Notes: a model not told the origin generated them from the sequence alone. A stretch of 64,000 nt of DNA from Lentisphaerae bacterium GWF2_49_21 (GCA_001804805.1 MHBH01000039.1:1-64000); one strand, 5' to 3'; positions 2,126 through 22,005 are shown, numbered from the stretch's first letter. Numbers and translations are program-made.

Positions 2126-2370
2126 ATCTGTAAAGGACAATTAGGCAATTCGGAAAATGAAATAATGTTGTTAAATGGTTGCATGGACTTAAAATGTCCT
2201 ATATCCATATGCATAGTCATGTCCGGAAAACTACTAGTCAGTGGTGAAGCAAAAAATATTCCGTGTGAATGGAATTACCGGTTACAGCATTGATTTCACC
2301 TGACCAAGAGTTAATGTTCCAATGCAAGGACATTATACCACGCACGCTGAAGCATCTGCTAGGGGGCAAA

Positions 2371-4557: not shown

Positions 4558-4576
4558 CCAGAATGCGAGGTGCATC

Positions 4577-5284
4577 ATGAAAGGATTCTGTCTTGAGGTG
4601 AGCGGGGAATTCGCCTGCTTCACCCGGCCGGAGATGAAGGTTGAGCGCGTCAGCTACGACGTCATCACCCCGTCTGCGGCCAGGGCCATCTTTGATTTCA
4701 TACTGTGGAAGCCGGCGATACGCTGGCAGGTGGGGAAAATCGAGGTGCTGTCGCCCATACGTTGGGCATCCGTCCGCCGCAACGAGGTGGGGAAGGTCGC
4801 ATCACCGCGTGCGGAAAGCATCTTCATCGAGGACGAAAGGCAGCAGCGTGCGGCGCTCATATTGAGGGATGTAAGATACAGGCTCCATGCGGAGTTCGAA
4901 TATATTCCTCCCGACAAACGCGGAAAGGCCATGAACCCACTTCCGGAATGGATTGTAGATGCGGAGGAGAAGATCGAACTTAAAAAGGATGAGACGCCTG
5001 CAAAGTACGCGTCCATGTTCGAGAGACGGGCCAAAAAGGGGCAGTGCTTCAACCAGCCCTATCTGGGATGCCGGGAATTCTCATGCTCGTTCAAACTTGT
5101 CGGTCCTGAAGACGGGCCGGCAGTTTCCCCCAAGGAACTGGAAGGATCACGAGACCTTGGATGGATGCTCTATGACCTGGATTATACCGACAGCCAGAAC
5201 ATCAGGCCGCTTTTTTTCCGTGCGACCATGGTCAACGGAGTCATAGCCGTCCCCGGACGCAGATCGGAGGAGGTGAGAGGATGA
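4577..5284 (+). CDS. cas5c: Cas5c (Cas5d) pre-crRNA endoribonuclease, type I-C
   Basis: The 235-residue RAMP protein starts with the glycine-poor beta strand and F-x-R-P-E-M-K-VERVSYDVITPSAARAI segment typical of Cas5d, followed by the WKPAIRW and SPIRWASVRRNEV segments. In type I-C systems, which have no Cas6, Cas5 cuts the pre-crRNA within the repeat and then stays as the crRNA 5'-handle subunit of Cascade. The ATG at 4577 has an AGGTG-like site just upstream. Its stop overlaps the start of cas8c (ATGA at 5281-5284), so the two are translationally coupled. Confidence 0.92.
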   Translation: MKGFCLEVSGEFACFTRPEMKVERVSYDVITPSAARAIFDFILWKPAIRWQVGKIEVLSPIRWASVRRNEVGKVASPRAESIFIEDERQQRAALILRDVRYRLHAEFEYIPPDKRGKAMNPLPEWIVDAEEKIELKKDETPAKYASMFERRAKKGQCFNQPYLGCREFSCSFKLVGPEDGPAVSPKELEGSRDLGWMLYDLDYTDSQNIRPLFFRATMVNGVIAVPGRRSEEVRG

Positions 5285-6990: not shown

Positions 6991-7015
6991 AAAAACAAGG
7001 AAAGGAAAAGAAAAC

Positions 7016-7945
7016 ATGAATTCGATCAAGAACCGCTACGACTTTCTCCTCGTCTTCGACGTGAAAGACGGAAACCCCAACGGAGATCCCGACGCCGGCA
7101 ACCTGCCGAGGGTCGACGCCGAGACCGGATGCGGCCTCGTAACCGATGTCTGCCTCAAGCGCAAGGTCAGGAACTATGTCGACATGACCCAGCGTGACGC
7201 CAACAAGGGCATCAAACCCGGCTACGACATCTTCGTGCGTGAGAAGGCCGTGCTGAACAAGCTGATCGACGGGGCGTATCAGGCGCTGAAGATAAAGCTT
7301 GATGAAGCGCCGAAAGACGCGAAGGACGGTAAGAAGCGCAACAAGGAAGGTTCAGGACAGGGCAGCGAAATCGATCAGGCGCGCGTAAAGATGTGCGAGA
7401 CATATTATGACATCCGCACTTTCGGCGCCGTAATGGGAACAGGAGCCAACGCGGGACAGGTGCGTGGACCGGTACAACTGACTTTCGGCAGGTCGATCGA
7501 TCCCATAGTGACACAGGAACATTGCATAACCAGGATGGCGGTGACCAATGAGGCGGACGCGGAGAAGCAGGGCGGCGACAACCGCACGATGGGACGCAAG
7601 AACACAGTCCCATATGGCGCGTATGCCGCTCATGGATTCATCTCCGCGCACCTTGCCGCACAGACGGGATTCACGGACGATGACCTGAAACTCCTGTGGA
7701 GCGCCCTGGTCAGCATGTTCGAACATGATCATTCTGCGGCCAGGGGCATGATGTCCACGCAGAAGCTGATCGTCTTCAAACACGACTCAGCGCTAGGCTG
7801 CGCCCCTGCGCACAAGCTCTTTGAACTTGTTGGTATCAAGAGGAAGGACGGGAGCGCCGGACCGGCGAGAACGTTCAGCGACTATGCTGTGAGTATTGAC
7901 AAGAAGAATATTCCAAATGGCGTAGAACTGATTGAAATGCTCTAA
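7016..7945 (+). CDS. cas7c: Cas7c (Csd2) Cascade backbone subunit
   Basis: The 309-residue RAMP-superfamily protein has the Csd2/Cas7 opening [20 protein letters not shown], then [14 protein letters not shown], then [19 protein letters not shown], and the [14 protein letters not shown] segment. All are hallmark stretches of the type I-C/I-B Cas7 family. Multiple copies line the crRNA spacer in Cascade. A purine-rich site (AAGGAAAGG) lies at 6999-7007, before the ATG at 7016. cas4 follows 11 nt after the stop. Confidence 0.94.
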
Positions 7946-7956
7946 GATGGGGAAAG

Positions 7957-8601
7957 ATGTATTTCGAAGATGATTACATCCAGCTCTCGGCATTGCAGCA
8001 CTTCCTTTTCTGCAGGAGGCAGTGTGCCCTTATCCATATAGAGCAGAACTGGCAGGAAAATAAATTTACAATTGAGGGCAAGATCCTGCATGAAAAGGCT
8101 GACGCTCAGTGTGCTAGACGCCAAGGCTCGGATGTAAAAATAGAATACGGCCTTCTTATCCGGTCCCGGGAACTGGGTCTTTCCGGCAAGGCTGATGTCG
8201 TTGAATTCCATAGGAGCGGAACACATGATTGGAATCCCTTTCCTGTAGAGTACAAAAGAGGAAAGCCAAAGGAAATAAGATGCGACGAGGTGCAGCTCTG
8301 CGCCCAGGCTCTTTGTCTTGAGGAGATGATGGGGGTTAAGATTCCATGCGGATTCCTCTACTATGGTAAGACGCGTCATAGGGATGATGTACTTTTTGAT
8401 GACGTCCTGAGGAAACTGACAATTCAAACGATATCGGATCTCCGTAAACTTATTGAAAGCAGGCGGACTCCGGAACCGGCCTATGAGAGGGAGAAATGCG
8501 ACAGCTGTTCAATGCTGGAACTGTGCATGCCGAAAGCGGCGGCGAAATCAGCTTCCGCCTATGTCAGGAAATGCCTGGAGGATAATGAAAAAGCTCCTTA
8601 A
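7957..8601 (+). CDS. cas4: Cas4 PAM-selecting 3'-5' exonuclease
   Basis: The 214-residue RecB-like nuclease carries one N-terminal cysteine in FCRRQC (near 18-22) and three C-terminal cysteines in CDSCSMLELC (181-190), which would hold a 4Fe-4S cluster. The nuclease core shows EGKILHEKAD (motif I histidine) and PVEYKRGKPK (catalytic E and K near 97-100). Cas4 trims prespacers and sets PAM and orientation together with Cas1-Cas2. The ATG at 7957 is preceded by GGGGAAAG. The 3' end overlaps cas1 by 17 bases. Confidence 0.92.
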   Translation: MYFEDDYIQLSALQHFLFCRRQCALIHIEQNWQENKFTIEGKILHEKADAQCARRQGSDVKIEYGLLIRSRELGLSGKADVVEFHRSGTHDWNPFPVEYKRGKPKEIRCDEVQLCAQALCLEEMMGVKIPCGFLYYGKTRHRDDVLFDDVLRKLTIQTISDLRKLIESRRTPEPAYEREKCDSCSMLELCMPKAAAKSASAYVRKCLEDNEKAP

Positions 8602-9610
8602 CACTCTTTTTGTGACAACCCAGGGTTCCTATCTTTCCAAGGAAGGCGAATCAGTCCTCGTGAACGTGGAAAGGGAAGTCAAGCTTCGCCTGCCCATACA
8701 TACAATCGGAGGGATTGTGTGCTTCGGACAGGTCTCCTGCAGTCCGGCGTTGATGGGGCTTTGCGCAGAAAAAAATGTCCTGCTTTCGTTCCTGAGCGAA
8801 CACGGGAAGTTTCTTGCACGGATACATGGTCCTGTTTCTGGCAATGTCCTGCTCCGAAAGGCGCAGTATAAGATGTCCGATGACAATGCGGGATCCGCAC
8901 AGGTCGCAAGATCTGTCCTGACAGGGAAACTCTGCAACTGCCGCACCGTTCTCCAGAGATATCTCCGAGATCATGGAGAAAGCTCAACAGAGGTGGGGAT
9001 TGTGTCAAGGAGAATAGACCAACATATTGAACGGCTGAATGGGATATCGGATTTGGAATCCCTGAGAGGGATAGAGGGGGATTCCGCAAGGGCTTATTTC
9101 TCAGTTTTCGGCAACCTCATAACAGCACAGAAGACGGATTTCGTATTCCAGGGGAGGAACAGGAGACCTCCAATGGACAACACAAATGCCCTTCTGTCGT
9201 TCGTCTATACCTTGCTTGTCCACGATGTACAGGCCGCTCTTGAGACTGTCGGGCTTGACCCGGCAGTGGGCTTCCTGCACAGGGACAGGCCGGGCCGACC
9301 CGGTCTCGCCCTTGATCTCATGGAGGAGCTGAGGCCGTTTTTTGCAGACAGGATTGTACTGTCACTGATCAATCTCCAAAGGGTGAATGGAAAAGGTTTC
9401 AGGAAGATGGAAGGAGGAGCTGTTGTCATGGACGACACCACCCGTAAAGAAGTCCTCGTAGCCTATCAGGAACGGAAAAAGGATGAACTGACTCATCCGT
9501 TCATTGATGAAAAAATATATGTCGGAATGATCCCATATGTGCAGGCATTGCTTTTTGCTAGGTTCATCAGGGGCGATTTGGATGCCTATCCGCCTTTTAT
9601 CTGGAAATAA
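8585..9610 (+). CDS. cas1: Cas1 integrase (type I-C)
   Basis: The ATG at 8585 has GGAGG at 8577-8581 and gives 341 residues beginning KKLLNTLFVTTQGSYLSKEG, the usual type I-C Cas1 start. The frame is open further upstream inside cas4, but that part is not Cas1-like. The catalytic metal ligands are visible: E in RGIEGDSARAYF (near 162), H in GFLHRDRPGRP (near 230) and D/E in LALDLMEELRP (near 243-248). Together with Cas2 it inserts new spacers at the leader end of the array. Overlaps cas4 by 17 bases. Confidence 0.94.
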   Translation: MKKLLNTLFVTTQGSYLSKEGESVLVNVEREVKLRLPIHTIGGIVCFGQVSCSPALMGLCAEKNVLLSFLSEHGKFLARIHGPVSGNVLLRKAQYKMSDDNAGSAQVARSVLTGKLCNCRTVLQRYLRDHGESSTEVGIVSRRIDQHIERLNGISDLESLRGIEGDSARAYFSVFGNLITAQKTDFVFQGRNRRPPMDNTNALLSFVYTLLVHDVQAALETVGLDPAVGFLHRDRPGRPGLALDLMEELRPFFADRIVLSLINLQRVNGKGFRKMEGGAVVMDDTTRKEVLVAYQERKKDELTHPFIDEKIYVGMIPYVQALLFARFIRGDLDAYPPFIWK

Positions 9611-9630
9611 ATTTACAGAGGTAAATTAAA

Positions 9631-9921
9631 ATGCTTGTGCTTGTCAGCTATGATGTCAAGACTTCTTCCATGACCGGACAGAAACGGTTAAGAAGAGTCG
9701 CCAAGGCGTGTCTGGACTACGGACAGAGGGTTCAGAATTCTGTATTCGAATGCCTCGTGGATCAAACGCAGTTTACAGTATTGAGAAATAGACTTATTGA
9801 TGAAATTGACGAAAGCCAGGACAGCTTGAGATTTTATTTTCTGGGAAATAACTGGCATGGTAAGATTGAGCACATCGGGGCAAAAGCTACAGTAGATCTT
9901 GAGGGTTCCCTGATAGTATGA
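9631..9921 (+). CDS. cas2: Cas2 adaptation protein
   Basis: The 96-residue ferredoxin-fold protein opens with LVLVSYDVKT (conserved aspartate of the first strand), followed by KRLRRVAKACLDYGQRVQNSVFEC, a textbook Cas2 pattern. It forms the dimer that bridges two Cas1 dimers. AGAGGT at 9616-9621 precedes the ATG. It is the last cas gene; the leader and array follow directly. Confidence 0.95.
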   Translation: MLVLVSYDVKTSSMTGQKRLRRVAKACLDYGQRVQNSVFECLVDQTQFTVLRNRLIDEIDESQDSLRFYFLGNNWHGKIEHIGAKATVDLEGSLIV

Positions 9922-10105
9922 ATAATATTTGCGAACCTGTAGCGAATGCGATATGCGTCGAAAGTTCGCATAAATCATAACAAGATGATCACCAGGATGA
10001 TACAAATCAGCATTCAAAAACTTGTCCCCTTCATGAATACTTTTTTATGGGCTTCGCGAATAAACATGATTTGTTCTTTGATAATTAAAGAGTTATAATT
10101 TGACA
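9922..10105 (+). promoter_or_regulatory. CRISPR leader with promoter abutting the first repeat
   Basis: This AT-rich 184-base stretch lies between cas2 and the first repeat. TTGTTC (10071-10076) and TATAAT (10094-10099) are 17 nt apart, which would start transcription within a few bases of the first repeat at 10106. Near its start a 7-base inverted repeat (TGCGAAC at 9930-9936, GTTCGCA at 9964-9970) encloses a GC-rich loop. It could be a weak terminator for cas2 or a protein-binding site for adaptation. The leader end is assigned because the opposite end of the array carries the degenerate repeat. Confidence 0.7.
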
Positions 10106-12149
10106 GTCGCTCCCCGCGAGGGGGGCGTGGATTGAAACATTTTAAAAGGGTTCTTAGGGGTGACCCTAAGGGGTGTCGCTCCCCGCGAGGGGGGCGTGGA
10201 TTGAAACAGGCAAACTACGAATCTGAAATCATGCAGCAGAGTCGCTCCCCGCGAGGGGGGCGTGGATTGAAACAAAACAGGAACTGGCAAAGCGCAGGAA
10301 AAGGATTATGTCGCTCCCCGCGAGGGGGGCGTGGATTGAAACCTTTAATCGTTACAATAGTTCCATCGGGCTTGTGGTCGCTCCCCGCGAGGGGGGCGTG
10401 GATTGAAACAGAGTCGGAAGGATGCTCGAACAGTGTCATGGAAGTCGCTCCCCGCGAGGGGGGCGTGGATTGAAACAAAAAACCTTGCGTTAATGTGGAA
10501 GGCTGGCGGCGTCGCTCCCCGCGAGGGGGGCGTGGATTGAAACAAAATGATGCAACCCCTCCCTTGGTTGTGTCTACAGTCGCTCCCCGCGAGGGGGGCG
10601 TGGATTGAAACTGAAATGATGATACATGACGCATGGGGCATAGGCAGTCGCTCCCCGCGAGGGGGGCGTGGATTGAAACAATTGTGATTGTGCCGCCCTG
10701 ATATCCAGCCGGAAGTCGCTCCCCGCGAGGGGGGCGTGGATTGAAACATAGGTGGTCGCATCTATGGTTGTCAGGTTTATTGTCGCTCCCCGCGAGGGGG
10801 GCGTGGATTGAAACAAGATCATAGCCTAAATCATGGCAAGCTATGCAAAGTCGCTCCCCGCGAGGGGGGCGTGGATTGAAACAGATATGCCTAATCCATA
10901 AACTGCCATACAAGGTGTCGCTCCCCGCGAGGGGGGCGTGGATTGAAACACCAGTGATCTTGTGTCACTGGTCCCGAGAATCGTCGCTCCCCGCGAGGGG
11001 GGCGTGGATTGAAACCTGATAGAGGCGCTGGCAAGGAAAAAGGATGAGGTCGCTCCCCGCGAGGGGGGCGTGGATTGAAACATTCTTTGGTTTCTCGTTT
11101 GCATGTTTCGCTTCCTTGTCGCTCCCCGCGAGGGGGGCGTGGATTGAAACAACCATTTGCGGTCACTTGCAGGGTATAGTTATCCAGTCGCTCCCCGCGA
11201 GGGGGGCGTGGATTGAAACAAGGAGTGTATGAACGGAATACAGACAAGGCCAGTCGCTCCCCGCGAGGGGGGCGTGGATTGAAACAATGTGGATAAGGTT
11301 GTATCTCGGGCAACGCTTAGTCGCTCCCCGCGAGGGGGGCGTGGATTGAAACAGCCAGAAACACAAGGATAAGTATTGGAATCGAGTCGCTCCCCGCGAG
11401 GGGGGCGTGGATTGAAACCGAGAAAATCGCAAGGGAACACGGCGTTTCCGAGTCGCTCCCCGCGAGGGGGGCGTGGATTGAAACGATCCGGACAAAACAT
11501 TACGCTTTTAACAATCTCGGGTCGCTCCCCGCGAGGGGGGCGTGGATTGAAACAAGATCACGAAAAAGGAAAAGACCGCGACCGTCAGTCGCTCCCCGCG
11601 AGGGGGGCGTGGATTGAAACAGATTACCGACACCGGCCCTTGACGCAGGAATAAGTCGCTCCCCGCGAGGGGGGCGTGGATTGAAACATGATTAACACCC
11701 TCGAAGAAACCTACAAGAAAGTCGCTCCCCGCGAGGGGGGCGTGGATTGAAACAAGTATTCGACGCAAGATTTGACAAGCCCCTGAGGTCGCTCCCCGCG
11801 AGGGGGGCGTGGATTGAAACGTGGTAGATGCGACGCTCTCATACGTCTATTTAGTCGCTCCCCGCGAGGGGGGCGTGGATTGAAACAGGGTAACGGATTG
11901 GCTTCCGTTGGAACTGTCCGTCGCTCCCCGCGAGGGGGGCGTGGATTGAAACAGGGTTTGGATGATATCACAGCAGGAGTATGCAGAGTCGCTCCCCGCG
12001 AGGGGGGCGTGGATTGAAACGTGTCCAATGAACAGCGGGAACAGGCGGTAAATGTCGCTCCCCGCGAGGGGGGCGTGGATTGAAACCGGATTGTGCTGGT
12101 TAAGGAATGGGGCTTTGCTGAGTCGCTCCCCGCGAGGGGGGCGTGGATT
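10106..12149 (+). CRISPR. type I-C CRISPR array, 30 full repeats + 1 truncated, 30 spacers
   Basis: Thirty identical 33-base repeats, beginning GTCGCTCCCCGCGAGG and ending CGTGGATTGAAAC, are separated by 30 spacers of 33-36 bases. The last repeat (12122-12149) keeps its first 28 bases and then diverges (GGATT followed by CCAG), marking the old end. The repeat contains a CGCTCCCC/GGGGGGCG stem and the GATTGAAAC 3' handle typical of type I-C, processed by Cas5c. First repeat 10106-10138, second 10175-10207, and so on. Two spacers (10139-10174 and 10950-10982) contain perfect inverted repeats. 22 of 30 spacers start with A. Open frames across the array are artefacts of the repeats. Confidence 0.98.
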
Positions 12150-12188
12150 CCAGAAATATCTATGCTCGCAGGGTTTGCCATGCCAGCT

Positions 12189-12211
12189 AAAAAAAGGATT
12201 TCAAATCCTTT
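12189..12211 (-). terminator. rho-independent terminator of the RT/ubiquitin-like cassette
   Basis: On the minus strand a perfect 9-base inverted repeat (AAAGGATTT at 12193-12201 and AAATCCTTT at 12203-12211, one-base loop) is followed by a run of seven T. It overlaps the stop codon of the last gene of the minus-strand cassette and lies about 40 bases from the end of the CRISPR array, separating two converging units. The stem is AT-rich, so termination may be partial. Confidence 0.65.
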
Positions 12212-12476
12212 AATCTTCCCTCCTTTCCTCCGTGTTGCATCCTATCTCCAGCAGGAACATCGACACGAAGCCGATGAACAGCACTCCTGGATTGAACAGT
12301 AGCATGATCCAGAAGAGTATGCTCGCGGCCATCAGCGATCCAGAGACATCCCCCTTGGCCTTCCGTGCCACGTAGAGCAGCCCGTAGAAAACGGCCACCG
12401 CCACGGTCCAGCCCATTCCGAATGCCAGCAGCGTGAACAGCATTCCGATCCCGCCAGCTGTCAGAAGTACGCTCAT
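12210..12476 (-). CDS. small membrane protein (paralogue of the upstream gene)
   Basis: The 88-residue protein consists of hydrophobic helices: about residues 5-36 (long, or two helices with a break), a basic loop VARKAKGDVSG, then a second pair near 48-80. It aligns end to end with the preceding gene product (shared WT...FY..RRKAKG and F.SM.LLEIG), so the two come from a tandem duplication. The start (GGAGG at 5-nt spacing) overlaps the upstream stop as ATGA. I do not recognise a family. As the last members of the cassette, the pair could be membrane effectors or anchors, but this is inference only. Confidence 0.7.
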   Translation of the reverse strand: MSVLLTAGGIGMLFTLLAFGMGWTVAVAVFYGLLYVARKAKGDVSGSLMAASILFWIMLLFNPGVLFIGFVSMFLLEIGCNTEERRED

Positions 12477-12781
12477 GACGCCCTCCTGCCGATGAAACCT
12501 ATTTCAAGCAGCAGCATGGATACGCCTCCGAAGACGAACATGGCCGGGCAGAATATAAGTATGACCCAGTAAAGGATCCAGGCGGCGGCTTCCAACCCGG
12601 TAGTGTTCCCTTTTGCCTTCCGTCTTATGTAAAATAAAACGTACAGGACACCCATCACCAATGTCCACCATAACCCCAGCATCACCACGGAAAACACAAG
12701 CCCTGCGACGCCCAGCATCATTGCAAGGTTTATGTCGAAGAGCGGATTCCAGCCGCGGGGTTTTGTATCAGCATCAGCCAT
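12473..12781 (-). CDS. small membrane protein (102 aa)
   Basis: A soluble N-terminus of about 18 residues (MADADTKPRGWNP) is followed by hydrophobic segments near 19-50, a basic loop FYIRRKAKGN and a second hydrophobic region near 65-95 ending in LLLEIGFIGRR. It is paralogous to the next gene. AGGAG sits 8 nt before the ATG. It is separated from the ubiquitin-like gene by about 70 bases that hold nothing obvious. Possible role: pore-forming or membrane-tethered component of the cassette, a guess from position and hydrophobicity. Confidence 0.7.
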   Translation of the reverse strand: MADADTKPRGWNPLFDINLAMMLGVAGLVFSVVMLGLWWTLVMGVLYVLFYIRRKAKGNTTGLEAAAWILYWVILIFCPAMFVFGGVSMLLLEIGFIGRRAS

Positions 12782-12854
12782 AATTAAATTCTCCTTCCAG
12801 TAAAAAATAAGGCGGAGCCATTACAGCCCCGCCTGTGTTCCAGTTCCTTCCGGA

Positions 12855-13082
12855 TCAGGCCGCGCGCAGTCCCTTCTCGCCTGACTCCTTGACGAATTCG
12901 ATCTCGTCGCCCGCGTTGATGACGGTGTCCTTGTCGCTGGTTTCATCGCCGTTGACGAGGATCGTGCAGTTGTCCCTGGGGATGTTCAGCAGCTGGCCAT
13001 GGCTCCTGATGGCCTCGTTGATGGTCTTGCCGTTGAGATCCTCGAGTTCGATTTCGTTCACTCCGCAGATCAGCTTTGGCAT
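12855..13082 (-). CDS. ubiquitin-like beta-grasp protein (ThiS/MoaD-like)
   Basis: The 75-residue product has a beta-grasp pattern: strand MPKLICGVNEIEL, a helix (TINEAIRSHGQLLN), then TILVNGDETSDKDTVINAGDEIEFV. The L-VNG...D-T-V...GDEIEF sequence is the ThiS/MoaD/ubiquitin-like signature. It ends in ESGEKGLRAA and has no terminal GG. If conjugated it would need trimming or would use another Gly, or it may bind non-covalently. With E1, E2-like and JAB genes in the same run, it is the natural modifier. GGAAGGAAA precedes the ATG. Fold assignment is by eye. Confidence 0.7.
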   Translation of the reverse strand: MPKLICGVNEIELEDLNGKTINEAIRSHGQLLNIPRDNCTILVNGDETSDKDTVINAGDEIEFVKESGEKGLRAA

Positions 13083-13348
13083 TGTATTATTTCCTTCCTT
13101 TTGTTTTTACCGCCGGCGTTATGCGTGGCGGCTCTGGTTTTGAAAAGTTGCACAAGGGAGGCTGTCCCTCCCAGGTGGCTGACGCTTCTGCCGCTTGCGT
13201 TGATGCGGGGCAAGGTCCCGCTGCACCTCCCAAGTTTTGCATTGAAAACCCGGTGCGCGAAAAAGTTTCAGGATATTGGACATCCCGGTTATTTAGAGAA
13301 AATGCTTCATAAGGCCTCCCTGTGTTTTTGCTTTTGAATCCGAAGTCA
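13083..13348 (-). other. 266-base gene-less stretch with hairpins inside the cassette
   Basis: No convincing gene is present. A perfect 6-base hairpin with 5-base loop (GGGAGG/CCTCCC, 13156-13172) is enclosed by a second CCTCCC and T-run at 13226-13237. A GCGGG/CCCGC pair lies near 13205-13221. On the minus strand a Shine-Dalgarno-like GGGAGG is followed by a five-codon frame (MKHFL). The region could be a second structured RNA or an attenuator before the ubiquitin-like gene. Evidence is base pairing by eye only. Confidence 0.3.
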
Positions 13349-13582
13349 TCAGTCCAGCAGGACCATGTACGCATCGGGCCAGTTCCTGCTGAATATCGCC
13401 AGGCCTGTCTCGACATTCTCATAATCGCCGATCATTTCGGCGCCTTTTATCAGGTCGTATAGCGCGACCGCCTCGGGGCAGAGCTCCACGCTTTTGCCGG
13501 AATACGGATTCGTGACGACTTCGTTCTCAGTGCCGATCATGAGTCCGCCGATCAGGTTTTTCTCCTCCTCCATGACTTGCAT
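13349..13582 (-). CDS. hypothetical protein (77 aa)
   Basis: An acidic 77-residue soluble protein (starting MQVMEEEKNLIGGLMIG) lies 18 bases after the E1-like gene. It contains TENEVVTNPYSGKSVELCPEAVALYDLIKGAE, which reads like a beta hairpin followed by a helix, and ends NWPDAYMVLLD. A GGAGCAATAAG-like site precedes the ATG. I do not recognise the family. Position between E1 and the ubiquitin-like gene suggests it belongs to the same unit. Confidence 0.6.
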   Translation of the reverse strand: MQVMEEEKNLIGGLMIGTENEVVTNPYSGKSVELCPEAVALYDLIKGAEMIGDYENVETGLAIFSRNWPDAYMVLLD

Positions 13583-13600
13583 CTTATTGCTCCTCCCTTG

Positions 13601-14281
13601 TTATGCCGCGCGTTTTACTGTTCTTGCAATGTTCTTGTCGATGTCGAAATACACCTCGCCATACGACAGGGTTGCTCCGCCCATGATCTTGTAGTATGCG
13701 TTCATCATCACTGCCGCCGCCATGAAGTTCGTGAAGACAAGCTGCGGACTTTGCGGGATCTCCTCGTCGCAGCCGATCTCGTCAGGCCTCCGGTCCCGTG
13801 GGTAAGCTATTTCCGGATGATGCTTCGTTATCGGAGCAGTCAAAACACGCCCTTTTTTCTTTACGAAGATCTGCACGTTGCCATCTGTGTAGTCATTGCC
13901 TCCGGACACCAGTATGGCGTCCCTGAGCCTTACCATGTGCTCCTGCACAAGGTTCCTCGTCGCATGGTTGTCCACGCAGAGCATCACGGTATCTCCCGCA
14001 AGGATCATCCTTTGAATGTTCGCCGGCGTGACATAGTCCGTGACGCTCTTGATATCCAAGCCGGAGAACATCCGCGACAATCTTCTGGCCCATGCATCCG
14101 CCTTGTGCTGGCCGATCTCATCGCCAGTCACGCGCTGCCTGTCGGCGTTCCTGGTTTCATACCTGTCGCCGTCAATGAGCAGGATCTGCTTTCCTCCATC
14201 GCTGTGCGCCATATATCTCGCCAGGGGTTCGGCCAGCGCGCCTCCGATTCCGCCCAGGCCGATTATTATCAGTTTCGACAT
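13601..14281 (-). CDS. ThiF/E1-like adenylyltransferase
   Basis: The 226-residue protein is a minimal E1/ThiF Rossmann domain. The nucleotide loop GLGGIGG is at 8-14, acidic D37 in LLIDGDRYE, N45 and R48-Q49-R50 in the NADRQR stretch, K60, and D104-N105 in LCVDNHATR. These are the MgATP-binding set of the MoeB/ThiF/E1 family. Cysteines C102 and C171 are candidates for the thioester site. E1 enzymes adenylate the C-terminus of a ubiquitin-like protein and pass it to a cysteine. Size and neighbours (JAB, E2-like, beta-grasp) resemble the PRTRC cassette ThiF, but no ParB gene is present here. 15 bases downstream of the 92-residue gene. Confidence 0.85.
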   Translation of the reverse strand: MSKLIIIGLGGIGGALAEPLARYMAHSDGGKQILLIDGDRYETRNADRQRVTGDEIGQHKADAWARRLSRMFSGLDIKSVTDYVTPANIQRMILAGDTVMLCVDNHATRNLVQEHMVRLRDAILVSGGNDYTDGNVQIFVKKKGRVLTAPITKHHPEIAYPRDRRPDEIGCDEEIPQSPQLVFTNFMAAAVMMNAYYKIMGGATLSYGEVYFDIDKNIARTVKRAA

Positions 14282-14296
14282 TATGCCTCCATTGGT

Positions 14297-14575
14297 TTAT
14301 TGTTCTTCCTTCCCATCCTTCCATGTCACGTCCCTGTCGTACTTCCTGTAGACGCCTCCGTCCGCAGGCACGCACTCATTGATATGGAACCCGCACGTGT
14401 AGCCCAGCCCGTCGCCGGGATCATTGGTCACGGTGCCGCGTGCGCCTCCGAAATGCTCCGCTATCAGGTCGCCCAGCGCCTCCAGGAATTTCTGGTAATG
14501 GTCCGTATCATCCAGCTCCTGCGGCGCGCGCCTTATGATGTCGATCATTTCTTTGTCCTTGAGAATCTTTGGCAT
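14297..14575 (-). CDS. hypothetical protein (92 aa)
   Basis: Start chosen at 14575, where AAAGGATAGG precedes ATG (MPKILKDKEMIDIIRRAPQE); the frame is open further upstream without a ribosome site. The product is soluble and acidic with a helical first half (YQKFLEALGDLIAEHFGG) and a glycine/aspartate-rich second half. I do not recognise it. The start lies 68 bases inside the 3' end of the preceding zinc-ribbon gene, which suggests coupled translation or that the end of the upstream gene is over-extended. Confidence 0.55.
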   Translation of the reverse strand: MPKILKDKEMIDIIRRAPQELDDTDHYQKFLEALGDLIAEHFGGARGTVTNDPGDGLGYTCGFHINECVPADGGVYRKYDRDVTWKDGKEEQ

Positions 14576-14762
14576 GTTTCCTATCCTTTCCTTCGATGCA
14601 TTTCCTGCATATGTTTCCGTCTTTGGCCCTGGCGACATCCTCCCTTGAAAACAGATGCCCGCAGGCATCGCATTCAATTTTGCGGCCATAGGCGTCTTCG
14701 CACTGCCTGCAGTCCGAACCAGCAGGCGCGTCCGCATTTGTCATTTTTGCTCTCGTCATCAT
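14508..14762 (-). CDS. small zinc-ribbon protein (84 aa)
   Basis: Two cysteine pairs, IECDACGHLF and GNICRKCIEG, spaced about 20 residues apart, form a treble-clef/zinc-ribbon-like unit. A further DCRQCED pair lies before them. The C-terminal tail is basic and low in hydrophobics (KDRKHAKDSQGQRND). ATG 14762 is preceded by GAGGAAATAG. It may bind nucleic acid or act as a RING-like adaptor, but no RING spacing is evident. The overlap with the next gene lowers confidence in the C-terminus. Confidence 0.5.
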   Translation of the reverse strand: MMTRAKMTNADAPAGSDCRQCEDAYGRKIECDACGHLFSREDVARAKDGNICRKCIEGKDRKHAKDSQGQRNDRHHKARAAGAG

Positions 14763-14806
14763 TTTTCTATTTCCTCTATGTGCATTTAACACCTGTCCTT
14801 TCCTTG

Positions 14807-15031
14807 TCAGCCAGGGTGTCTTTCGTATATTCCAGACAGCTTGAGGATGTCATCCCACGAACGGCCGCAGTCCGTACATTTGGTCTCCTGTGCGCTGACT
14901 CCGGCGCCTATCGCCGCAGATCCAACACCCCATATTCCCCGGCTTCCGCAGTAAGGACAGTGCTTCCCGCCGGACTCCACATATCGGGCAATGGCCTTTT
15001 TGGACAGTTTCCTTTCTATCGGTTTCGCCAT
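14807..15031 (-). CDS. small zinc-ribbon protein (74 aa)
   Basis: The protein has HCPYCGSRGIWG and TKCTDCGRSWDDILKLSG, that is CxxC...CxxC with about 27 residues between, a classic zinc ribbon. It is clearly related to the gene at 15483-15692 (shared K.A.RYV/AYL...CP.C...CGR.W...KL..I). GGAG lies 7 nt before the ATG, inside the end of the upstream gene. The two ribbons flank the 136-residue gene, so this part of the cassette may derive from duplication. Confidence 0.7.
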   Translation of the reverse strand: MAKPIERKLSKKAIARYVESGGKHCPYCGSRGIWGVGSAAIGAGVSAQETKCTDCGRSWDDILKLSGIYERHPG

Positions 15032-15032
15032 G

Positions 15033-15443
15033 TCAGCACTCCGCCTTGGTTATGTTCCTGCCGAGCTTCTTCACCCTGGGATCGCTGTAGATGTCCGACA
15101 GGCATATTGACACGCACTCCATCCTGTTGTTTATTGCGAAGGCATCCCCGGCCAGGTAGCGCAGCTTCTCATAGCCGATGGACATGAAGACCGCCACCTC
15201 GCCGTCCTCCAGACGCGGGGCCACGATGTCGATGATGTTGAAGTTGATTTCTTTGCCGTTGCCGTCGACATATGAGCTGTCCCAGCCCGCCTCGCCTGTC
15301 GCCAGCAGGGCCACCTTGCCCTTCCTGCCCCTGCCGACGCCGGTGATGATCCTGACATCGCACTTGTCCATTGCGGCCTTGAACCTGGCCATGTCCTTCA
15401 CCCGGAAATAATTGCTCCTCGCATATCCATAGTAGTCAGCCAT
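15033..15443 (-). CDS. hypothetical protein (136 aa), YFRVKD-type
   Basis: The 136-residue soluble protein begins ADYYGYARSNYFRVKDMARF and ends DPRVKKLGRNITKAEC. It contains alternating beta strands and a conserved-looking DGEVAVFMSIGYEKLRYL stretch. From memory, similar YFRVKD proteins occur on plasmids and integrative elements without known function; I cannot name the family. It starts 40 bases after the first zinc-ribbon gene and ends one base before the second, so it is in the operon. Confidence 0.65.
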   Translation of the reverse strand: MADYYGYARSNYFRVKDMARFKAAMDKCDVRIITGVGRGRKGKVALLATGEAGWDSSYVDGNGKEINFNIIDIVAPRLEDGEVAVFMSIGYEKLRYLAGDAFAINNRMECVSICLSDIYSDPRVKKLGRNITKAEC

Positions 15444-15482
15444 GATTCCTCCTTTATGTTTTCTAGCAGACGGTCCATTATT

Positions 15483-15692
15483 TCATATCTCCTCCTGTAT
15501 CCTTGCCAGTTTGTAGAATTCGGTCCAGCATCTGCCGCATTTGCTGCATCTCGCCGACTGCCTGGCCTCTCCGGAATCAGCTTTCAGTTCCGATACCGAG
15601 TCTATGTCGCCGGACCTGCACCACGGGCAGCGCAGCGGCGACTTCAGATATGCAGCCCTCATCTTCTTTGTGAGCCTCCTCTCAGCAGTCAT
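15483..15692 (-). CDS. small zinc-ribbon protein (69 aa)
   Basis: A basic N-terminus (MTAERRLTKKMRAAYL) precedes LRCPWCRSGDIDS and SARCSKCGRCWTEF, again CxxC...CxxC. Paralogue of the 14807-15031 product. The ATG overlaps the JAB-gene stop by one base (TGATG), so translation is coupled to the protease gene. Likely binds zinc; could bind RNA/DNA or recruit substrates. Function not known. Confidence 0.7.
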   Translation of the reverse strand: MTAERRLTKKMRAAYLKSPLRCPWCRSGDIDSVSELKADSGEARQSARCSKCGRCWTEFYKLARIQEEI

Positions 15693-16396
15693 CAGAATTC
15701 CTCCATTTCAATTATCCTGTTTCCGAACTCTGCATCACGGCCTGGGAAATCCAGTTCATGATCATGCTCGTTGAACGGGAATTCCTTTTCAGCAGGCTTC
15801 ACATGCTTCAGCCAGGGATGCCTTTTGGCCTTTCCATTCGTGTGGCCGGGCATGTCGCTGATTATGTCCTGCGGCCTGCACTCGAACATCCTGCCGTTGA
15901 TATACACGGCGCTTGCTATCTCGGGGAACGGCTGGCTGATCCTGCCCAGCACGATGTGCAGCCCGTCGAAGCTGGCCACATCATTGTCATCGGTCCCCGA
16001 GAAGAACGCGCCCATGTTGCAGTGCGAGTGTATCGTGCCGGCAGGCGTGACTTTGTCCACGCTTTTATATTTCAAATGCGCGGACTGCACGATCTGTTTG
16101 GGCACGCTGATGTCCCAGATACCGCTGTCATGCGTGATTAACACGATGGCCTCGCCCTGGTACTTCATGTAGACGGCCCGGAAGAACTCCAAGGTGCTCT
16201 CAATGAGGGCCCAGGGCAGCTTCGTTGCCGTCCAGTTGACATTTTCTTTGACTTCAGGATAGTCCGGCAGCTCCGGCACCTTGACAGTGCATTCGTAGAG
16301 AGGCGTCCTCTTCTTAAGATAGAATCCGTCCTTCCCGACTATGTACGACGGGGCATCAGGTTCTCCTTGTCCTGCGTTGAACACTGGTATCGGCAT
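15692..16396 (-). CDS. JAB/JAMM metalloprotease (deubiquitinase-like)
   Basis: The 234-residue product contains the complete JAMM zinc motif H-x-H-x7-S-x2-D: H123, H125, S133 and D136 in TIHSHCNMGAFFSGTDDND, with a candidate upstream glutamate at E82 (GEAIVLITHD). JAMM proteases remove or mature ubiquitin-like modifiers. The N-terminal ~60 residues resemble the variable lead of PRTRC protein A, and the C-terminus is charged. AAAGGAAAGGA precedes ATG 16396. The start overlaps the end of the 102-residue gene by 41 bases. Confidence 0.85.
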   Translation of the reverse strand: MPIPVFNAGQGEPDAPSYIVGKDGFYLKKRTPLYECTVKVPELPDYPEVKENVNWTATKLPWALIESTLEFFRAVYMKYQGEAIVLITHDSGIWDISVPKQIVQSAHLKYKSVDKVTPAGTIHSHCNMGAFFSGTDDNDVASFDGLHIVLGRISQPFPEIASAVYINGRMFECRPQDIISDMPGHTNGKAKRHPWLKHVKPAEKEFPFNEHDHELDFPGRDAEFGNRIIEMEEF

Positions 16397-16664
16397 TTTC
16401 AGATCCTTTCCTTTTTGTTGTTTTGTCAGGGCAGCGCTTGATCACTGCCGCCAGCTTTCCGAATTCCTCCTCTTCGATCTCCTGGTTGATGCAGCTGCGC
16501 TCCTCCCTGAGGTGGATGGTCAGCCGCGCCGCCATCATCTCCTCGAATGAGCCACGGAAATCCTTGAGCTGGAATGTATCCTTCTCGAAGAACCTTCTGA
16601 AGGCGCTGTCCAGCGTAAGCGGACAGTTCTTCACCTTTTCCAAGGCCTTTTTGATCCTTTCCAT
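16356..16664 (-). CDS. hypothetical helical protein (102 aa)
   Basis: GGAGGG lies 7 nt before ATG 16664 and only three bases separate it from the stop of the E2-like gene, so the two are coupled. The protein is highly charged and helical (MERIKKALEKVKNCPLTLD, then FEEMMAARLTIHLREERS). The last ~15 residues (QRRTRRT) overlap the JAB gene start and are probably not conserved. No family recognised. In this context it may be a partner of the E2-like protein, similar in place to the short PRTRC accessory genes. Confidence 0.6.
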   Translation of the reverse strand: MERIKKALEKVKNCPLTLDSAFRRFFEKDTFQLKDFRGSFEEMMAARLTIHLREERSCINQEIEEEEFGKLAAVIKRCPDKTTKRKGSENADTSVQRRTRRT

Positions 16665-16667
16665 TGT

Positions 16668-17348
16668 TCAGCCCTCCAGGAGATCTGTGGCGATCTCGCT
16701 GAGCTTCGCCAGAGGTTTCCACTTCACTTCCGACACCTTGAAGCCGCTGTCGCTGCTGAGCCGCTCCCATACAGCAAGAGGGTCCGCGCTTTCTGCCGGA
16801 CTCCTGCCTTGCTTGAATACCTCCGGCAGGGCTTTCTGGAAACTGTCGTCAAGGTCGGAGTTGAACTTCGACTCCCAGAAGAAGTTCTCGGTGCCGGCGA
16901 TCTTGTCACCGAGCCGGCCTTCAAGGCTGAACTTCAGGTCGTCGCCTATGCACACCAGGCCGTCGTCATGGATGTTCTTCAGCGGCAGCCTGCACAGCAT
17001 ATCGGCTGTGTCATTGACCGAAACACCCGAGCAGTAGACATAGAGGTTCTCCATCGCTGAGTTGAAATACACATGCATGAAGTAGACATGCGGCAATGAC
17101 AGCGAATATTCCCTGATGGTGTCGTCCACCGTCCTCACATCGATCTCCTTCACAGCTGGCTGTTGGTGCGTCAGATAGATTTTCCTCTCATTCTTAGAAG
17201 CGTAGAAGACCACTCTCTCGGGAAGTACCGGCGTCCTTATGCCGGCAGACTGCGAGAGGCTCTCGTAGAAGTCATCGACTGTGACGGACCTGGTCTCCTG
17301 CACGGAGCGCAGTACGACCTTGCCGCCTGTGATCAGAATCTCGTCCAT
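16668..17348 (-). CDS. E2-like protein (prokaryotic E2 family D / PRTRC protein B-like)
   Basis: Start chosen at 17348, where AAAGGA precedes ATG (MDEILITGGKVVLRSV); the longer frame to 17459 lacks a ribosome site. The 226-residue product shows the pattern of bacterial E2-like proteins of the PRTRC B type. A run of beta strands (PERVVFYASKNERKIYLTHQ, LPHVYFMHVYFNSAMENLYV) is followed by a proline-rich turn and the segment HDDGLVCIGD with C133 where an E2 catalytic cysteine would lie. C106 and C119 are alternatives. It would carry the ubiquitin-like protein from E1 to targets. Family call by eye. Confidence 0.6.
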   Translation of the reverse strand: MDEILITGGKVVLRSVQETRSVTVDDFYESLSQSAGIRTPVLPERVVFYASKNERKIYLTHQQPAVKEIDVRTVDDTIREYSLSLPHVYFMHVYFNSAMENLYVYCSGVSVNDTADMLCRLPLKNIHDDGLVCIGDDLKFSLEGRLGDKIAGTENFFWESKFNSDLDDSFQKALPEVFKQGRSPAESADPLAVWERLSSDSGFKVSEVKWKPLAKLSEIATDLLEG

Positions 17349-17367
17349 GGGAAGTTTCCTTTCTTTT

Positions 17368-17466
17368 TTAGGGCAGGGGTGGCTTGCCTTCTGCGGGCGG
17401 CGGATCCAGGAAATCCCATTCCTGGATCCATAGCCGCAGAACTTTGAACAGGATTTCACTGTTCAT
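17368..17466 (-). CDS. possible 32-residue peptide upstream of the E2-like gene
   Basis: A short frame starts at ATG 17466 (MNSEILFKVLRLWIQEWDF) and ends with LDPPPAEGKPPLP, 19 bases before the E2-like start. Codon use resembles the flanking genes and it lies between the structured RNA and the E2-like gene. There is no good ribosome site, so it could be a leader peptide or chance. Confidence 0.3.
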   Translation of the reverse strand: MNSEILFKVLRLWIQEWDFLDPPPAEGKPPLP

Positions 17467-17578
17467 CCGATGGCGATGTTGCACCGCCCGGTGTTTTCCA
17501 GTAGTTCATGAGAATCAATGGAAAGCACAATACCAAGCCACTGGGGGGAACGTAGTTCCTCCCTTGTTTTCTTGAATG

Positions 17579-17788
17579 AAGTATCTTGCATAAGTCTGGG
17601 AGCGGTCCCCGGATGAGCGTCCGCGTGACTGCGCTTCGGCAGTGACGCGGTAAGCGGTTCCGGGGACCCGGAAGACCATTGAACAGGCATAACCTGATTG
17701 GAACGCTGTGGCGTTGCGCCGCAGTTCGCGCCTACTATGAATTATCCGAAGACAGTTCACGCATAGACGGCATGTTGCCAAGACACTT
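17579..17788 (-). ncRNA. candidate retron msr-msd RNA, downstream of the RT gene
   Basis: Read on the minus strand, AAGUGUCUUG (17788-17779) can pair over 10 positions, one of them G-U, with CAAGAUACUU (17588-17579), like the a1/a2 stem of a retron RNA. Between them come short stem-loops: GGCA-aca-UGCC, a GAAC..GC/GC..GUUC stem around a GGCG-CGCC hairpin, and CAGG-uuaug-CCUG. They are followed by one long hairpin with outer arms GGTCCCCGG/CCGGGGACC (17604-17612, 17660-17668), then CCGCGT/ACGCGG (17621-17626, 17645-17650) and ACTGC/GCAGT. Small loops then one long hairpin is the msr-then-msd order. It begins 10 bases after the RT stop. Canonical retrons place this RNA before the RT, so the order is unusual. 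Hand folding only. Confidence 0.6.
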
Positions 17789-17798
17789 GTTTTTGAAA

Positions 17799-18656
17799 CT
17801 AAGCTGCGATATTCATCTTTAAATTTACTGAACGGACCTCAAGGAGCCTTTCGATCTCCCTGATGTCCTGTTTGAAGCTTCGTGTCGCATCAATGTTCAC
17901 CGACTGGAAGTACGCGGCCATCCCTTTAAGGCTTTCATACTGCTTTTCATCATAGGGCTGGCTGTTGAGCAGCGCCATCTTGATGTTGTGCAGCCCTGCG
18001 CGGATATTGCGCCTGAGCTTCCTGGGAATGTTTACCTTGCGGTTCACGACAATCCCGGTGACGATCTGCCTGCGGCCTTTACGCATGACGCGGGTCTTCT
18101 TGTCGTTCAAGGTGTAGCCGCACTGCTCAATGACGAACTTTACTGCAGGAAGCATCTCGTTCAGTTTCGGATTGTCCGAGCTGAAGCAGAGATCATCTGC
18201 ATAACGTGAATAAGTGGCATCATAATTCTTTGCGAGCCCGGCAAGCCTAACGTCCATACCCTTCACCGCGAGATTTGAAAGCATCGGGCTCGTAGGTCCT
18301 CCTGTTGGAAGAGCGCCATCCAGAGTGCATGTGTTCGTGATGTCCTTTGCGGTTGCTGCCGGCAGTCCGGCCTTCATCAAAGCAGTAATGACCTGTCCGG
18401 ACTTCGTAGATCCGAAGAAGTCCTTCAGGTCAATTTTAATGACTACCTTCTTATTGACGTGCAATCTGGCATGTGTGGCCGTCGAACGCCCGGTCACGAA
18501 GCCGTGGGCGTATGAGCTGGGGCGTATCCCTCGGGCGGTGAGCCAGCGGAGTATGCCCTGCTGCTTCTTTTTTAGCTCCGGCACTGGCTCGGATATGATC
18601 CTCATCGTGCCGTCGCGCTTGGGGATCCTGTGGAACCTGTAATTGCTGGAGTCCAT
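17799..18656 (-). CDS. retron-type reverse transcriptase
   Basis: AGGAG at 8-nt spacing supports ATG 18656 (MDSSNYRFHRIPKRDGTMRI), giving 285 residues; the TTG at 18707 is an alternative. RT motifs are all present: IKIDLKDFF (D76), LPTGGPTSPMLSN (115-128), SRYADDLCFSS with the YADD box at 152-155, and KKTRVM. Retron hallmarks are the VTG triplet in RRQIVTGIVVN (199-201) and HARLH (62-66), matching the NAxxH-type motif apart from its first residue. No maturase or DGR accessory domain is present, so a group II intron or DGR enzyme is unlikely. The enzyme would make msDNA from the adjacent structured RNA. It is the first gene of the minus-strand cassette. Confidence 0.85.
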   Translation of the reverse strand: MDSSNYRFHRIPKRDGTMRIISEPVPELKKKQQGILRWLTARGIRPSSYAHGFVTGRSTATHARLHVNKKVVIKIDLKDFFGSTKSGQVITALMKAGLPAATAKDITNTCTLDGALPTGGPTSPMLSNLAVKGMDVRLAGLAKNYDATYSRYADDLCFSSDNPKLNEMLPAVKFVIEQCGYTLNDKKTRVMRKGRRQIVTGIVVNRKVNIPRKLRRNIRAGLHNIKMALLNSQPYDEKQYESLKGMAAYFQSVNIDATRSFKQDIREIERLLEVRSVNLKMNIAA

Positions 18657-18728
18657 GGGGAAATCTCCTATGCTGGGGTTAAATGGGTGGGTATCTGCAA
18701 GGGACAAGGGCTAAGTCCTTACCTATAT

Positions 18729-18734
18729 ATTATA
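18729..18734 (-). promoter_or_regulatory. possible -10 element for the RT cassette
   Basis: On the minus strand a perfect TATAAT occurs here in GGGTATAATATATAGG. No good -35 box is found at 16-18 nt. Transcription from here would give a leader of about 65 bases before the RT start, too short to hold a canonical upstream msr-msd RNA. Confidence 0.35.
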
Positions 18735-19198: not shown

Positions 19199-20608
19199 AT
19201 GAAAGATTACAAGTACATTGCCATTGCGAACCAGCTCCTGAATGATGTTCATTACAGGAAGTCGGGAAGACGTCTCCCCAGCGAAAGGAAAATATGTGGC
19301 ATATTCAAGGTAAGCCGCATAACGGCCAAGAAGGCGCTGAACCATCTGAAGGAAAACTCCAAGGTTACAAGGCACGTTGGAAGAGGTACATTTATCTCGA
19401 CTAGTAAAAGCAGGATTTCAATTACTTTGCTTGTCACCCCTCATCTACCCGGAGTGGAAATGATTTCCTTCTTCAAGGATGAGATATCGAGATATGCGGG
19501 ACAAACTCCCGGAGTCGATATCTCGATTAAGGAAATACAGGGCAACGTGGTTTCATCCTCATACAGTATTCCAGGTGTGAAGATCATATATTGGCCCTAT
19601 GCCGGTTATGTTTCCCCCATGGATATACTAGTCCCGCTCGATGAATTTTCCGATTTCACCCAAGTCATGAGCCTTGTGAACAATAATTACTGCCATTGGG
19701 GAAATGACAGGACCGGACGGACAAGATGCTATTCGATTCCGATGCATCTCGGTGTTGATGCATTCATGTTCAACCGTGAATACGCAGGACTGCTTGGCCT
19801 AGATGCGGACAGAGGGCCTTCGGACTGGAACGACATACTGCACTGGTGCAAAGCCACCGGTGAAAACCGCAAGAGGAAGATCGCCCCGACATTCTTAAGC
19901 GACTTTGACGGTTTTCTGCTACCGAGTTCGTATTATTATACGCTGTCAGGAGGGAATAATTTCATATTCGACGATAAAGGTAAGATAAACTTTTCATTCG
20001 ATTCCGGGGTGAAATGGCTAAAGTTCTTCAGGGATCTGCACCTGCTGAAAAAAAACATGATCCTGACATCCCATCAGCCTGATCCAATATTTTCAGGGAA
20101 GACGTTGTTTACGCTGACAGGAGGAACTTGGATGTATTCCCAGAAGAAAAGGCTTGGGTCCGATGTTCCAGTGAAAGTTGTCCCCATTCCCCCATGTGAG
20201 AAAAACAATGGTTCAGTTTCAAGGGTTGGGAAATATGAACTTGCCATTGCCAGCGGTGGCTCCTCATCCGAAGATGAAATCCGTGGTGCATGGGACTTCA
20301 TAAAATATCTTACCTGTGAAGAAGATGTGCAGGAACGTTTGGTTGGGATCTTTTCATCTCTAGCAGCAAACAAGAATGTCTTCAGCAGGCAGGGGCAGGA
20401 TATGAAATGGGCGCCATTCATTCAGGCGCTGGCAACCGGAATAATCCCAACGCCACATCCCGTCATGTTTGCCATCAATGCTATCATGAAGAAGTATTTC
20501 AGGATGTCGGTCTTCGGCGGAATGGATCCCGAGGAGGCGACGGTAAAGATTGACGAGTTATGCAGGCTTCAGATAGAAATTGAGAAGGAAAGGAGCGGTA
20601 TCGCATGA
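19199..20608 (+). CDS. GntR-family regulator fused to an ABC-type solute-binding domain
   Basis: ATG 19199 gives 469 residues. Residues 1-70 are a GntR winged helix ([49 protein letters not shown]). From about 75 to the end the sequence is an extracellular solute-binding protein fold of the maltose/sugar type: [56 protein letters not shown]. There is no signal peptide, so the binding domain is cytoplasmic and presumably senses a sugar. The gene begins a cluster of pseudopilins and a glycoside hydrolase. Upstream frame to 19133 covers the promoter and is not coding. Few GntR proteins carry this sensor. Confidence 0.85.
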
Positions 20609-21222
20609 ATCCCGGTACTGGCAGAAACTTTACACTTATAGAATTACTAGTGGTAATTGCGATCATAGCGATACTAGCAGCCCTTCTTCTGCCAGCCCTG
20701 AAAGCCGCGAAACAAAAAGCAAACCAATCCCTTTGCCTTAGCAACATGAAACAGACATATATTGTTTTTGCGGGATATGGCACTGATTACTCGGATTTCT
20801 GGCCGCCGTTGCGGCAGATCGATTCGACCTCAGGCGATTTCTGGCATATGATTCTTTACTCCCATGACACAGGAAAAACAGCCACTGAAGCCCTGATGGC
20901 ACAGTCCATATTCAGATGTTCTACCGTCGAGCAATATACCACCTGGACGCCTGGGATTGGAATGAATGCAACCATTCCGTCGAACACAACTGGCAGCCTG
21001 GTTTGGAATGATTATGTGAACAAGCCAGTCAAGATTTCAGCCATTCCACGCCCATCATTGGATAAATGGCCCCTCGTCGGGGATCGCTACAACAACTGGT
21101 TCATAAGATCGAACATAATTACGTATATGACATTTACTTCACATGGCTACCAGGGCAACGTTGTCTATTGCGATGGACACGCCTGCGGACTTGGAATAGG
21201 CGATTATGAGAGGATTCCCTGA
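20605..21222 (+). CDS. type II pseudopilin-like protein with H-X9-DG end
   Basis: The start overlaps the regulator stop (ATGA). The N-terminus [20 protein letters not shown] is a type IV prepilin/pseudopilin helix; it lacks the usual glycine before the F, as is common in this phylum. The rest is a 170-residue extracytoplasmic domain ending with [10 protein letters not shown], the DG-type processing-associated motif. Such proteins are expanded in Lentisphaerota and are thought to sit in the envelope, possibly in glycan handling; the role is unproven. Coupled to the regulator gene. Confidence 0.85.
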
Positions 21223-21279
21223 ACCACAATATTGGATAACAGGCATGAATTTACATGCGGATTGCTCTATGAGGTTGTT

Positions 21280-22005
21280 TTGAAATCAAGAATTCCAAAA
21301 GTATTCACACTTGTTGAACTGCTGGTCGTAATTGCAGTCATCGCAATACTGCTGTCTCTTCTTCTGCCTGCACTCCAGAGTGCGCGGGAAGCTGCGAAAT
21401 CTGCAGTGTGCTACAGCAATCTTAGGCAGTCATATCTTTCCGAATATACATACGCAATAGACCAGCAGGGATACCTTCCATTGATTTATAATCCTACCCT
21501 CAATTGCTGGAGAAGCTGGGTGTTCATGCTGGGGGAGGAATACATGAAACAACCGGCTGACGTTGCAGTATGTCCTTCGGACAGTCCCTACAGATGGCAG
21601 GCAGGCCAGTGGAACCGCTGCTATGGTGTCGACAGGGAGATAACATCGCCATATAATCTAGGTCCTTCCATTGCAAGAGGGGAATACGCCATAATACCGG
21701 TTGATTTTGGTTCAGGATATTTTATTGAATACAGGATGTTGACAAGAATAGCAGAGCCGGCGATGAGATGCTTTGTCGCTGACAGTTGGCATATTGGAGA
21801 CAAGAACCAGCATTATGTGAATCCAAGGAAGGCATGGAATCCCGCTACTGTACAGGTAGGTGTCACCTTGAGGCACAGCGGCAGGGCGAATGCAGTTCTC
21901 TGGGATGGGCATGTCAACACCTACAACAGGAATGATCTGAGGAACATAGGTTTCGAATATGGAATAACAGGAAGGAATGGAAAGTACGCCCTGTATGGGC
22001 TATAG
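21280..22005 (+). CDS. second pseudopilin-like H-X9-DG protein
   Basis: Start placed at TTG 21280, with GAGG at 21271-21274, giving 241 residues starting [21 protein letters not shown] frame from TTG 21232 is longer but puts the prepilin helix too far inside. The helix is followed by [16 protein letters not shown] and a domain ending in [15 protein letters not shown], the H-X9-DG motif. It follows the first pseudopilin by about 57 bases and is probably co-transcribed. Two pilin-like genes in tandem may supply alternative envelope subunits for one sugar-use unit. Confidence 0.8.

Follow-up and report, generated by a model that had tools for sequence, protein, structure and literature searches.

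A retron-type reverse transcriptase, tandem template-like RNAs and ubiquitin-like conjugation genes in one Lentisphaerae cassette

Main finding

The window, a stretch of 64,000 nt from Lentisphaerae bacterium GWF2_49_21, carries on its minus strand (18656-12210) a cassette with a retron-type reverse transcriptase (RT) gene and structured RNA, joined by genes for an E2-like protein (Prok-E2_D), a protease (JAB), an E1 enzyme (ThiF) and a ubiquitin-like protein (Ubl) that resembles ThiS. Gene order and co-inheritance across related genomes support a coupling of the RT to the conjugation genes. On this sequence-based evidence, the favoured reading, given slightly less than an even chance, is a mobile-element-borne retron variant in which RT and msDNA would gate a Ubl conjugation module. 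G numbers denote genomes and L numbers denote loci throughout.

Locus architecture and transcription

The minus-strand gene order was RT, E2, o102, JAB, zr1, o136, zr2, zr3, o96, E1, o77, Ubl, TM1 and TM2 (Table 1), with gaps of 450 nt between RT and E2, 266 nt before Ubl and 73 nt before TM1, and all other cassette genes overlapping or spaced by at most about 50 nt. The densely packed, one-strand union of an RT with a ubiquitin-like conjugation set that had been reported in the preliminary description proved real, RT, E2, JAB, E1 and Ubl all reaching Pfam cut-offs.

Table 1. Features of the cassette, in the direction of transcription (window coordinates)
Feature	Position	Strand	Basis and remarks
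TATAAT -10-like element	18722..18734	-	sequence and position; about 70 nt 5' of RT start; weak
Retron-type RT, 285 aa	17799..18656	-	profiles and motifs; ATG start, GGAG upstream
ncRNA A	17579..17788	-	a1 17788-17779, a2 17588-17579, msd-like hairpin about 17677-17593; conserved in L009
ncRNA B	17379..17541	-	a1 GUGGCUUG, a2 CAAGCCAC
ncRNA B hairpins	GGCGGUG..CAUCGCC 17488-17472; msd-like 17441-17389	-	comparison with relatives
E2-like protein (Prok-E2_D, PRTRC_B-like), 226 aa	16668..17348	-	profile, motif, AF2 model
Helper o102, helical	16356..16664	-	kept in all cassettes covering that place
JAB/JAMM protease (PRTRC_A-like)	15692..16396	-	profile and motif
Small CxxC protein zr1	15483..15692	-	below cut-offs; homologue in L009
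o136	15033..15443	-	among relatives checked, only in L009
Small CxxC protein zr2	14807..15031	-	below cut-offs
Small CxxC protein zr3	14508..14759	-	below cut-offs; overlaps next gene
o96	14297..14587	-	common to L009 and L010
E1-like ThiF enzyme, invariant Cys171	13601..14281	-	profile, alignment and tree
o77	13349..13582	-	ORF call; profile searches
Ubl beta-grasp protein ending ESGEKG-LRAA	12855..13082	-	profile and C-terminal motif
Intrinsic terminator after Ubl	12802..12834	-	terminator scan; 11-bp, strong
Small membrane protein TM1	12473..12781	-	ORF call; paralogue comparison
Small membrane protein TM2	12210..12476	-	paralogue of TM1
Terminator-like stem with a T run, 3' of TM2	12189..12211	-	sequence and position

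Separate promoters for the RT and conjugation parts had been named as grounds for rejecting the link; nothing promoter-like was found on the coding strand between them, and the minus-strand scan was empty from RT to TM2. The -10-like element 5' of the RT lacks a good -35 and was absent from the promoter-scan list. The end of the cassette needs correction: a terminator-like stem does follow TM2, but a further strong terminator already splits Ubl from TM1 and TM2, so a single transcript probably stops after Ubl, and TM1 and TM2 may lie outside the transcript of the RT-to-Ubl genes. Both proposed membrane proteins are present, as paralogues (46% identity over 69 aa), but set apart from Ubl; neither matched anything in any relative compared, and different small membrane-like ORFs follow Ubl in L009 and L012. 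For the three proposed zinc-ribbon proteins, three small CxxC proteins were recovered, but all of their Zn-ribbon matches fell below Pfam cut-offs. Structure prediction for the helper o102 was poor, with low confidence.

The cassette adjoins CRISPR-Cas and Shedu, as had been described: a type I-C system (cas3, 5c, 8c, 7, 4, 1c, 2), including a long CRISPR array that ends directly beside the cassette, occupies window 2269-12150, and a Shedu SduA homologue (SduA_C, 98 bits) lies at 847-2061. Window 20605-22005 and 44300-45064 encode several proteins resembling type II pseudopilins, with hydrophobic N-terminal motifs of the prepilin type. Two more retron-type RTs, both outside the cassette clade, were found in the same genome (G000 C69 and C81; L013 and L014), that of L013 being followed by a large helicase-like gene.

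Reverse transcriptase and template-like RNAs

The RT carries both of the retron motifs claimed for it, VTG and YADD, and matched retron RT profiles, with scores of 72 bits for Pfam RVT_1, 264 bits for PADLOC RT_XIII (the best RT model) and 206 bits for the NCBIfam retron St85 RT (NF038233), the last being under its curated cut-off of 235. The RT families matched in profile searches were retrons rather than DRTs, and the closest solved structures were the Ec67 and Ec86 RTs. Region X of the cassette RTs reads HAxxH in place of NAxxH, the Asn of which varies in 2 of 16 validated retrons (PMC6868368). Cassette RTs formed one clade on the RT tree (support 100/100).

The fold of the structured RNA was upheld, region 17440-17798 folding far above shuffles (z -5.1), but it is not single: on side-by-side reading of relatives, the RT-E2 gap splits into two tandem msr-msd-like elements, A and B, downstream of the RT. 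Each has an outer CUUG/CAAG stem with co-changing outer pairs, inner hairpins and, mostly, a long terminal hairpin. Two elements were also found in L009 and L012, and one each in L011 and L188; a1/a2 repeats were found in the cassette ncRNAs, with the outer stem not resolved in L011. The a1 motif together with the GGCGAUG hairpin signature occurred only in cassette-clade loci when 209 loci and the window were scanned. Counted on hand-chosen segments of five sequences, the a1/a2 stem and hairpin had four pairs changed on both sides and 98.6% of cells paired, and the covariation score was 0.436 against 0.205 in shuffles (0/500 shuffles as high); since five related sequences are few, the covariation counts as support, not proof. 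The predicted a1/a2 stem, together with the inner hairpins and the long terminal hairpin that most copies have, makes up the msr-msd layout.

Whole-ncRNA alignment with MAFFT followed by RNAalifold recovered the inner hairpin alone, because msd lengths differ, and was replaced by the counts on hand-chosen stems. A pattern for finding the ncRNA across whole genomes lacked specificity, matching 163 of 198 genomes, and Rfam searches of the RNA region returned no family match. A candidate ncRNA 5' of the RT in the window (z -3.0) was set aside because in L012 the RT begins 4 nt before the end of the DUF6908 gene that precedes it, so that no upstream space exists for one.

Conjugation proteins

The E2-like protein claimed at this locus scored above the cut-off for Prok-E2_D (29.9 bits, cut-off 25), with an invariant Cys133 in the motif KN....G.VC.G, which is also visible in one PRTRC B protein; its AF2 model (pLDDT 85.9) had no Foldseek match at E<=0.001, so the E2 assignment rests on sequence. 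JAB matched Prok-JAB at 26.6 bits (cut-off 25), and its JAMM motif was complete, as reported, and invariant (H123-x-H125-x7-S133-x2-D136). The ThiF/E1-like enzyme was borne out by a ThiF score of 90.8 bits, with nucleotide-binding residues kept and Cys171 invariant, and the cassette E1s formed one clade on the E1 tree (support 99). The beta-grasp protein likewise exceeded the cut-off for ThiS (26.2 bits, cut-off 22.5). GxKG was present in 72 of 78 distinct Ubl ORFs, mostly at the very end; in the window Ubl, four residues (LRAA) lie beyond the G-x-K-G motif, a tail that JAB would naturally be supposed to trim. With an E1, a Cys-bearing E2, a JAMM motif and a Ubl C-terminal Gly, the set qualifies by sequence as a complete predicted Ubl conjugation module. 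A phage Ubl at L077 8104-8736 has three beta-grasp repeats each ending in GxKG, like a polyubiquitin precursor.

Conservation among relatives

For the association in LENTISPHAERAE, E2 was present in 5 of 137 genomes of the order. The genome search proposed in the preliminary description, for the RT clade with E1, E2-like, JAB and beta-grasp genes, found them together in four genomes from two families. The order RT, ncRNA, E2, helper, JAB, E1, Ubl was kept in all four clade loci having downstream sequence, which represent two bacterial families and have RTs 54-86% identical to the window RT; in the window, G009, G060 and G070 the RT lay directly before the ncRNA, followed by E2. Contigs of G010 and G019 begin within the cassette. 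An RT search of the order added G004, two copies in G006 and an incomplete one in G010, on contigs that stop inside the RT or no more than about 0.65 kb past its end. No JAB, E1 or E2 was detected at the thresholds used in G004 and G006 (91-93% complete), in which the RT is present. These two genomes reflect either missing assembly or an RT without conjugation genes, and they form the main caveat: RTs lacking those genes had been named as a refuting observation, which applies in part, the pairing being kept in four genomes but the genes going undetected in G004 and G006, where contigs end early.

Upstream, genes for a PD-(D/E)XK nuclease, DUF932, DUF6908 or DUF4942 lie 5' of the RT in G009, G010, G060 and G004 (with RadC also in G009), which indicates a mobile element; none of these four was found in the window. 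A DNA-level search of plasmids for the cassette gave no match.

Pairings in viral and archaeal contigs

Viral scans returned over a hundred contigs with E2-JAB-E1-Ubl. A same-strand RT lay within the flank in L077, L088/L089, L095, L165, L174, L175/L182 and L178, and also in L020, a contig from an archaeal MAG. RT and E2 share 4 nt in L165, RT, ligase and E2 overlap in L175, and the chain E2-JAB-E1-x-y-RT overlaps throughout in L020. These RTs fell outside the cassette clade, at several places on an RT tree in which many deep branches are unsupported. On the E1 tree, the RT-linked rows required 8 changes, at least 4 of them forced by starred branches. Among six RT12-family loci with 10 kb upstream, JAB, E1 and E2 were there in five, and E1 was at the edge in the sixth. 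The RNA 3' of the L077 phage RT, near the conjugation module, folded with z -6.1 and two possible closed elements; no significant fold lay directly after the RT in L174 or L178.

Outside the cassette, the 111 distinct E1 rows, drawn from viral contigs together with L019 and L020, included 9 that were RT-linked; the remaining 102, and with them most phage copies of the conjugation genes, had no RT within the flank. Conjugation genes without an RT in most relatives had also been listed as a refuter, which likewise applies in part; independent clades are paired, but these 102 E1s have no RT nearby. Plasmid PRTRC-like and ThiF loci that were examined had no RT. An RT near ligase control loci was found in 0 of 21 cases (Fisher p 0.35), a control too small to decide the RT background.

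Both L020 and L019 may be of viral origin, their contigs having been binned together with those of their hosts. L019, named Neisseriaceae, has a conjugation module beside an NAD-dependent ligase and homing-endonuclease-like genes, and resembles a large phage. In L210 (Salmonella phage Arash), genes matching E2 and E1 carry structural-protein annotation, and many phage modules (for example L026 13066) have a second, weakly E1-like ORF after Ubl.

Proposed mechanism and alternatives

In the retron-variant reading, the RT would produce msDNA from one or both ncRNAs, and the RT-msDNA complex would restrain or recruit the conjugation module. Disturbance of that complex by a phage or rival element would be followed by JAB trimming of Ubl after G-x-K-G, after which E1 (Cys171) and E2 (Cys133) would attach Ubl to proteins of the invader or of the host. 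Defence or competition between mobile elements would be the output. That conjugation machinery might serve as the retron effector had been suggested beforehand: the kept pairing, the lack of an internal promoter-like site and the independent RT clades agree with this, but the effector or defence role itself is inferred. The defence neighbours in the window speak for the retron-variant reading, and similar pairings in unrelated viruses suggest that protein tagging may be under the control of a sensor that makes DNA, perhaps in defence. The broader proposal, a new immune or competition system with a reverse-transcribed DNA sensor, a Ubl conjugation effector and twin msDNA templates, gained repeatedly by bacteria, phages and archaea, is put forward tentatively, as possible but doubtful.

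The RT and conjugation genes could instead be two independent modules on one mobile element, co-transcribed without mechanistic meaning, with a PRTRC-like Ubl system downstream of a retron serving element maintenance, replication or counter-defence. The mobile-element-type genes in G009, G060, G004 and G010, and the RT-free state of the plasmid loci and most phage copies, fit such an arrangement, which is nevertheless judged unlikely, if far from negligible: four genomes keep the RT directly before E2, and in contigs unrelated to these, conjugation operons are overlapped by RTs from other clades. An improbable variant makes the membrane proteins, or unknown small genes, the toxic effector, with Ubl conjugation tuning the RT complex or effector in the manner of Cap2/Cap3-CBASS; it draws on TM1 and TM2 after the window Ubl, on the different membrane-like ORFs in L009 and L012 and on CBASS, which primes its sensor enzyme by Ubl-like conjugation according to PMC10097602, and it has against it the strong terminator before TM1 and the lack of TM1/TM2 matches in relatives. 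It is very improbable that the RT acts without conventional msDNA, the RNAs regulating the operon or templating another product as in DRT. The position of the RNAs between RT and E2, the missing Asn in region X and the empty Rfam searches would suit this account; the msr-msd layout and the matching of retron rather than DRT families argue against it.

If the retron-variant reading is true, protein tagging would be an output different from described retron effectors; the PRTRC-like conjugation modules that large phages and plasmids commonly carry, and for which the analysis found no function, would have a possible job; and a link between msDNA and protein modification would become testable.

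Comparison with known systems

A literature search, with most subscription journals outside its coverage, found no retron with Ubl conjugation genes, and the retron effectors in the literature searched were toxins, nucleases and similar enzymes. The cassette resembles retrons in its RT (YADD and VTG), in the a1/a2 stem and long terminal hairpin of its ncRNAs, and in being an operon with accessory genes within a defence island. It differs in having two ncRNAs downstream of the RT, where retrons usually have the ncRNA upstream, in its region X (HAxxH) and in the Ubl conjugation set as accessory genes.

Like PRTRC and operon type 6d of Iyer 2006 (PMC1779556), the cassette has a separate JAB with an N-terminal extension, an E1, an E2 with a conserved Cys and a small Ubl with a C-terminal Gly. 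NCBIfam PRTRC scores were far below curated cut-offs (46 against 101.8 for A, 24 against 131.5 for B and 58.6 against 144.8 for ThiF), with no hit to PRTRC C in the cassette; unlike PRTRC, no ParB, E or F protein was recognised there, and an RT and ncRNAs are added. Large-phage E2-JAB-E1-Ubl modules share the same proteins, usually in the same order, and the GxKG Ubl, but they mostly lack the RT that the cassette has, and the cassette E1s form a separate clade.

E2 and E1 are separate genes without a CBASS-type or 6A-MBL fusion, the E1 part alone matching PADLOC E1-E2 models, and no nucleotidyltransferase was found in the cassette. Its unfused E1 and its RT set the cassette apart from Bil and CBASS Cap2/Cap3, with which it shares bacterial Ubl-type conjugation and a JAB, reported for those systems in anti-phage defence.
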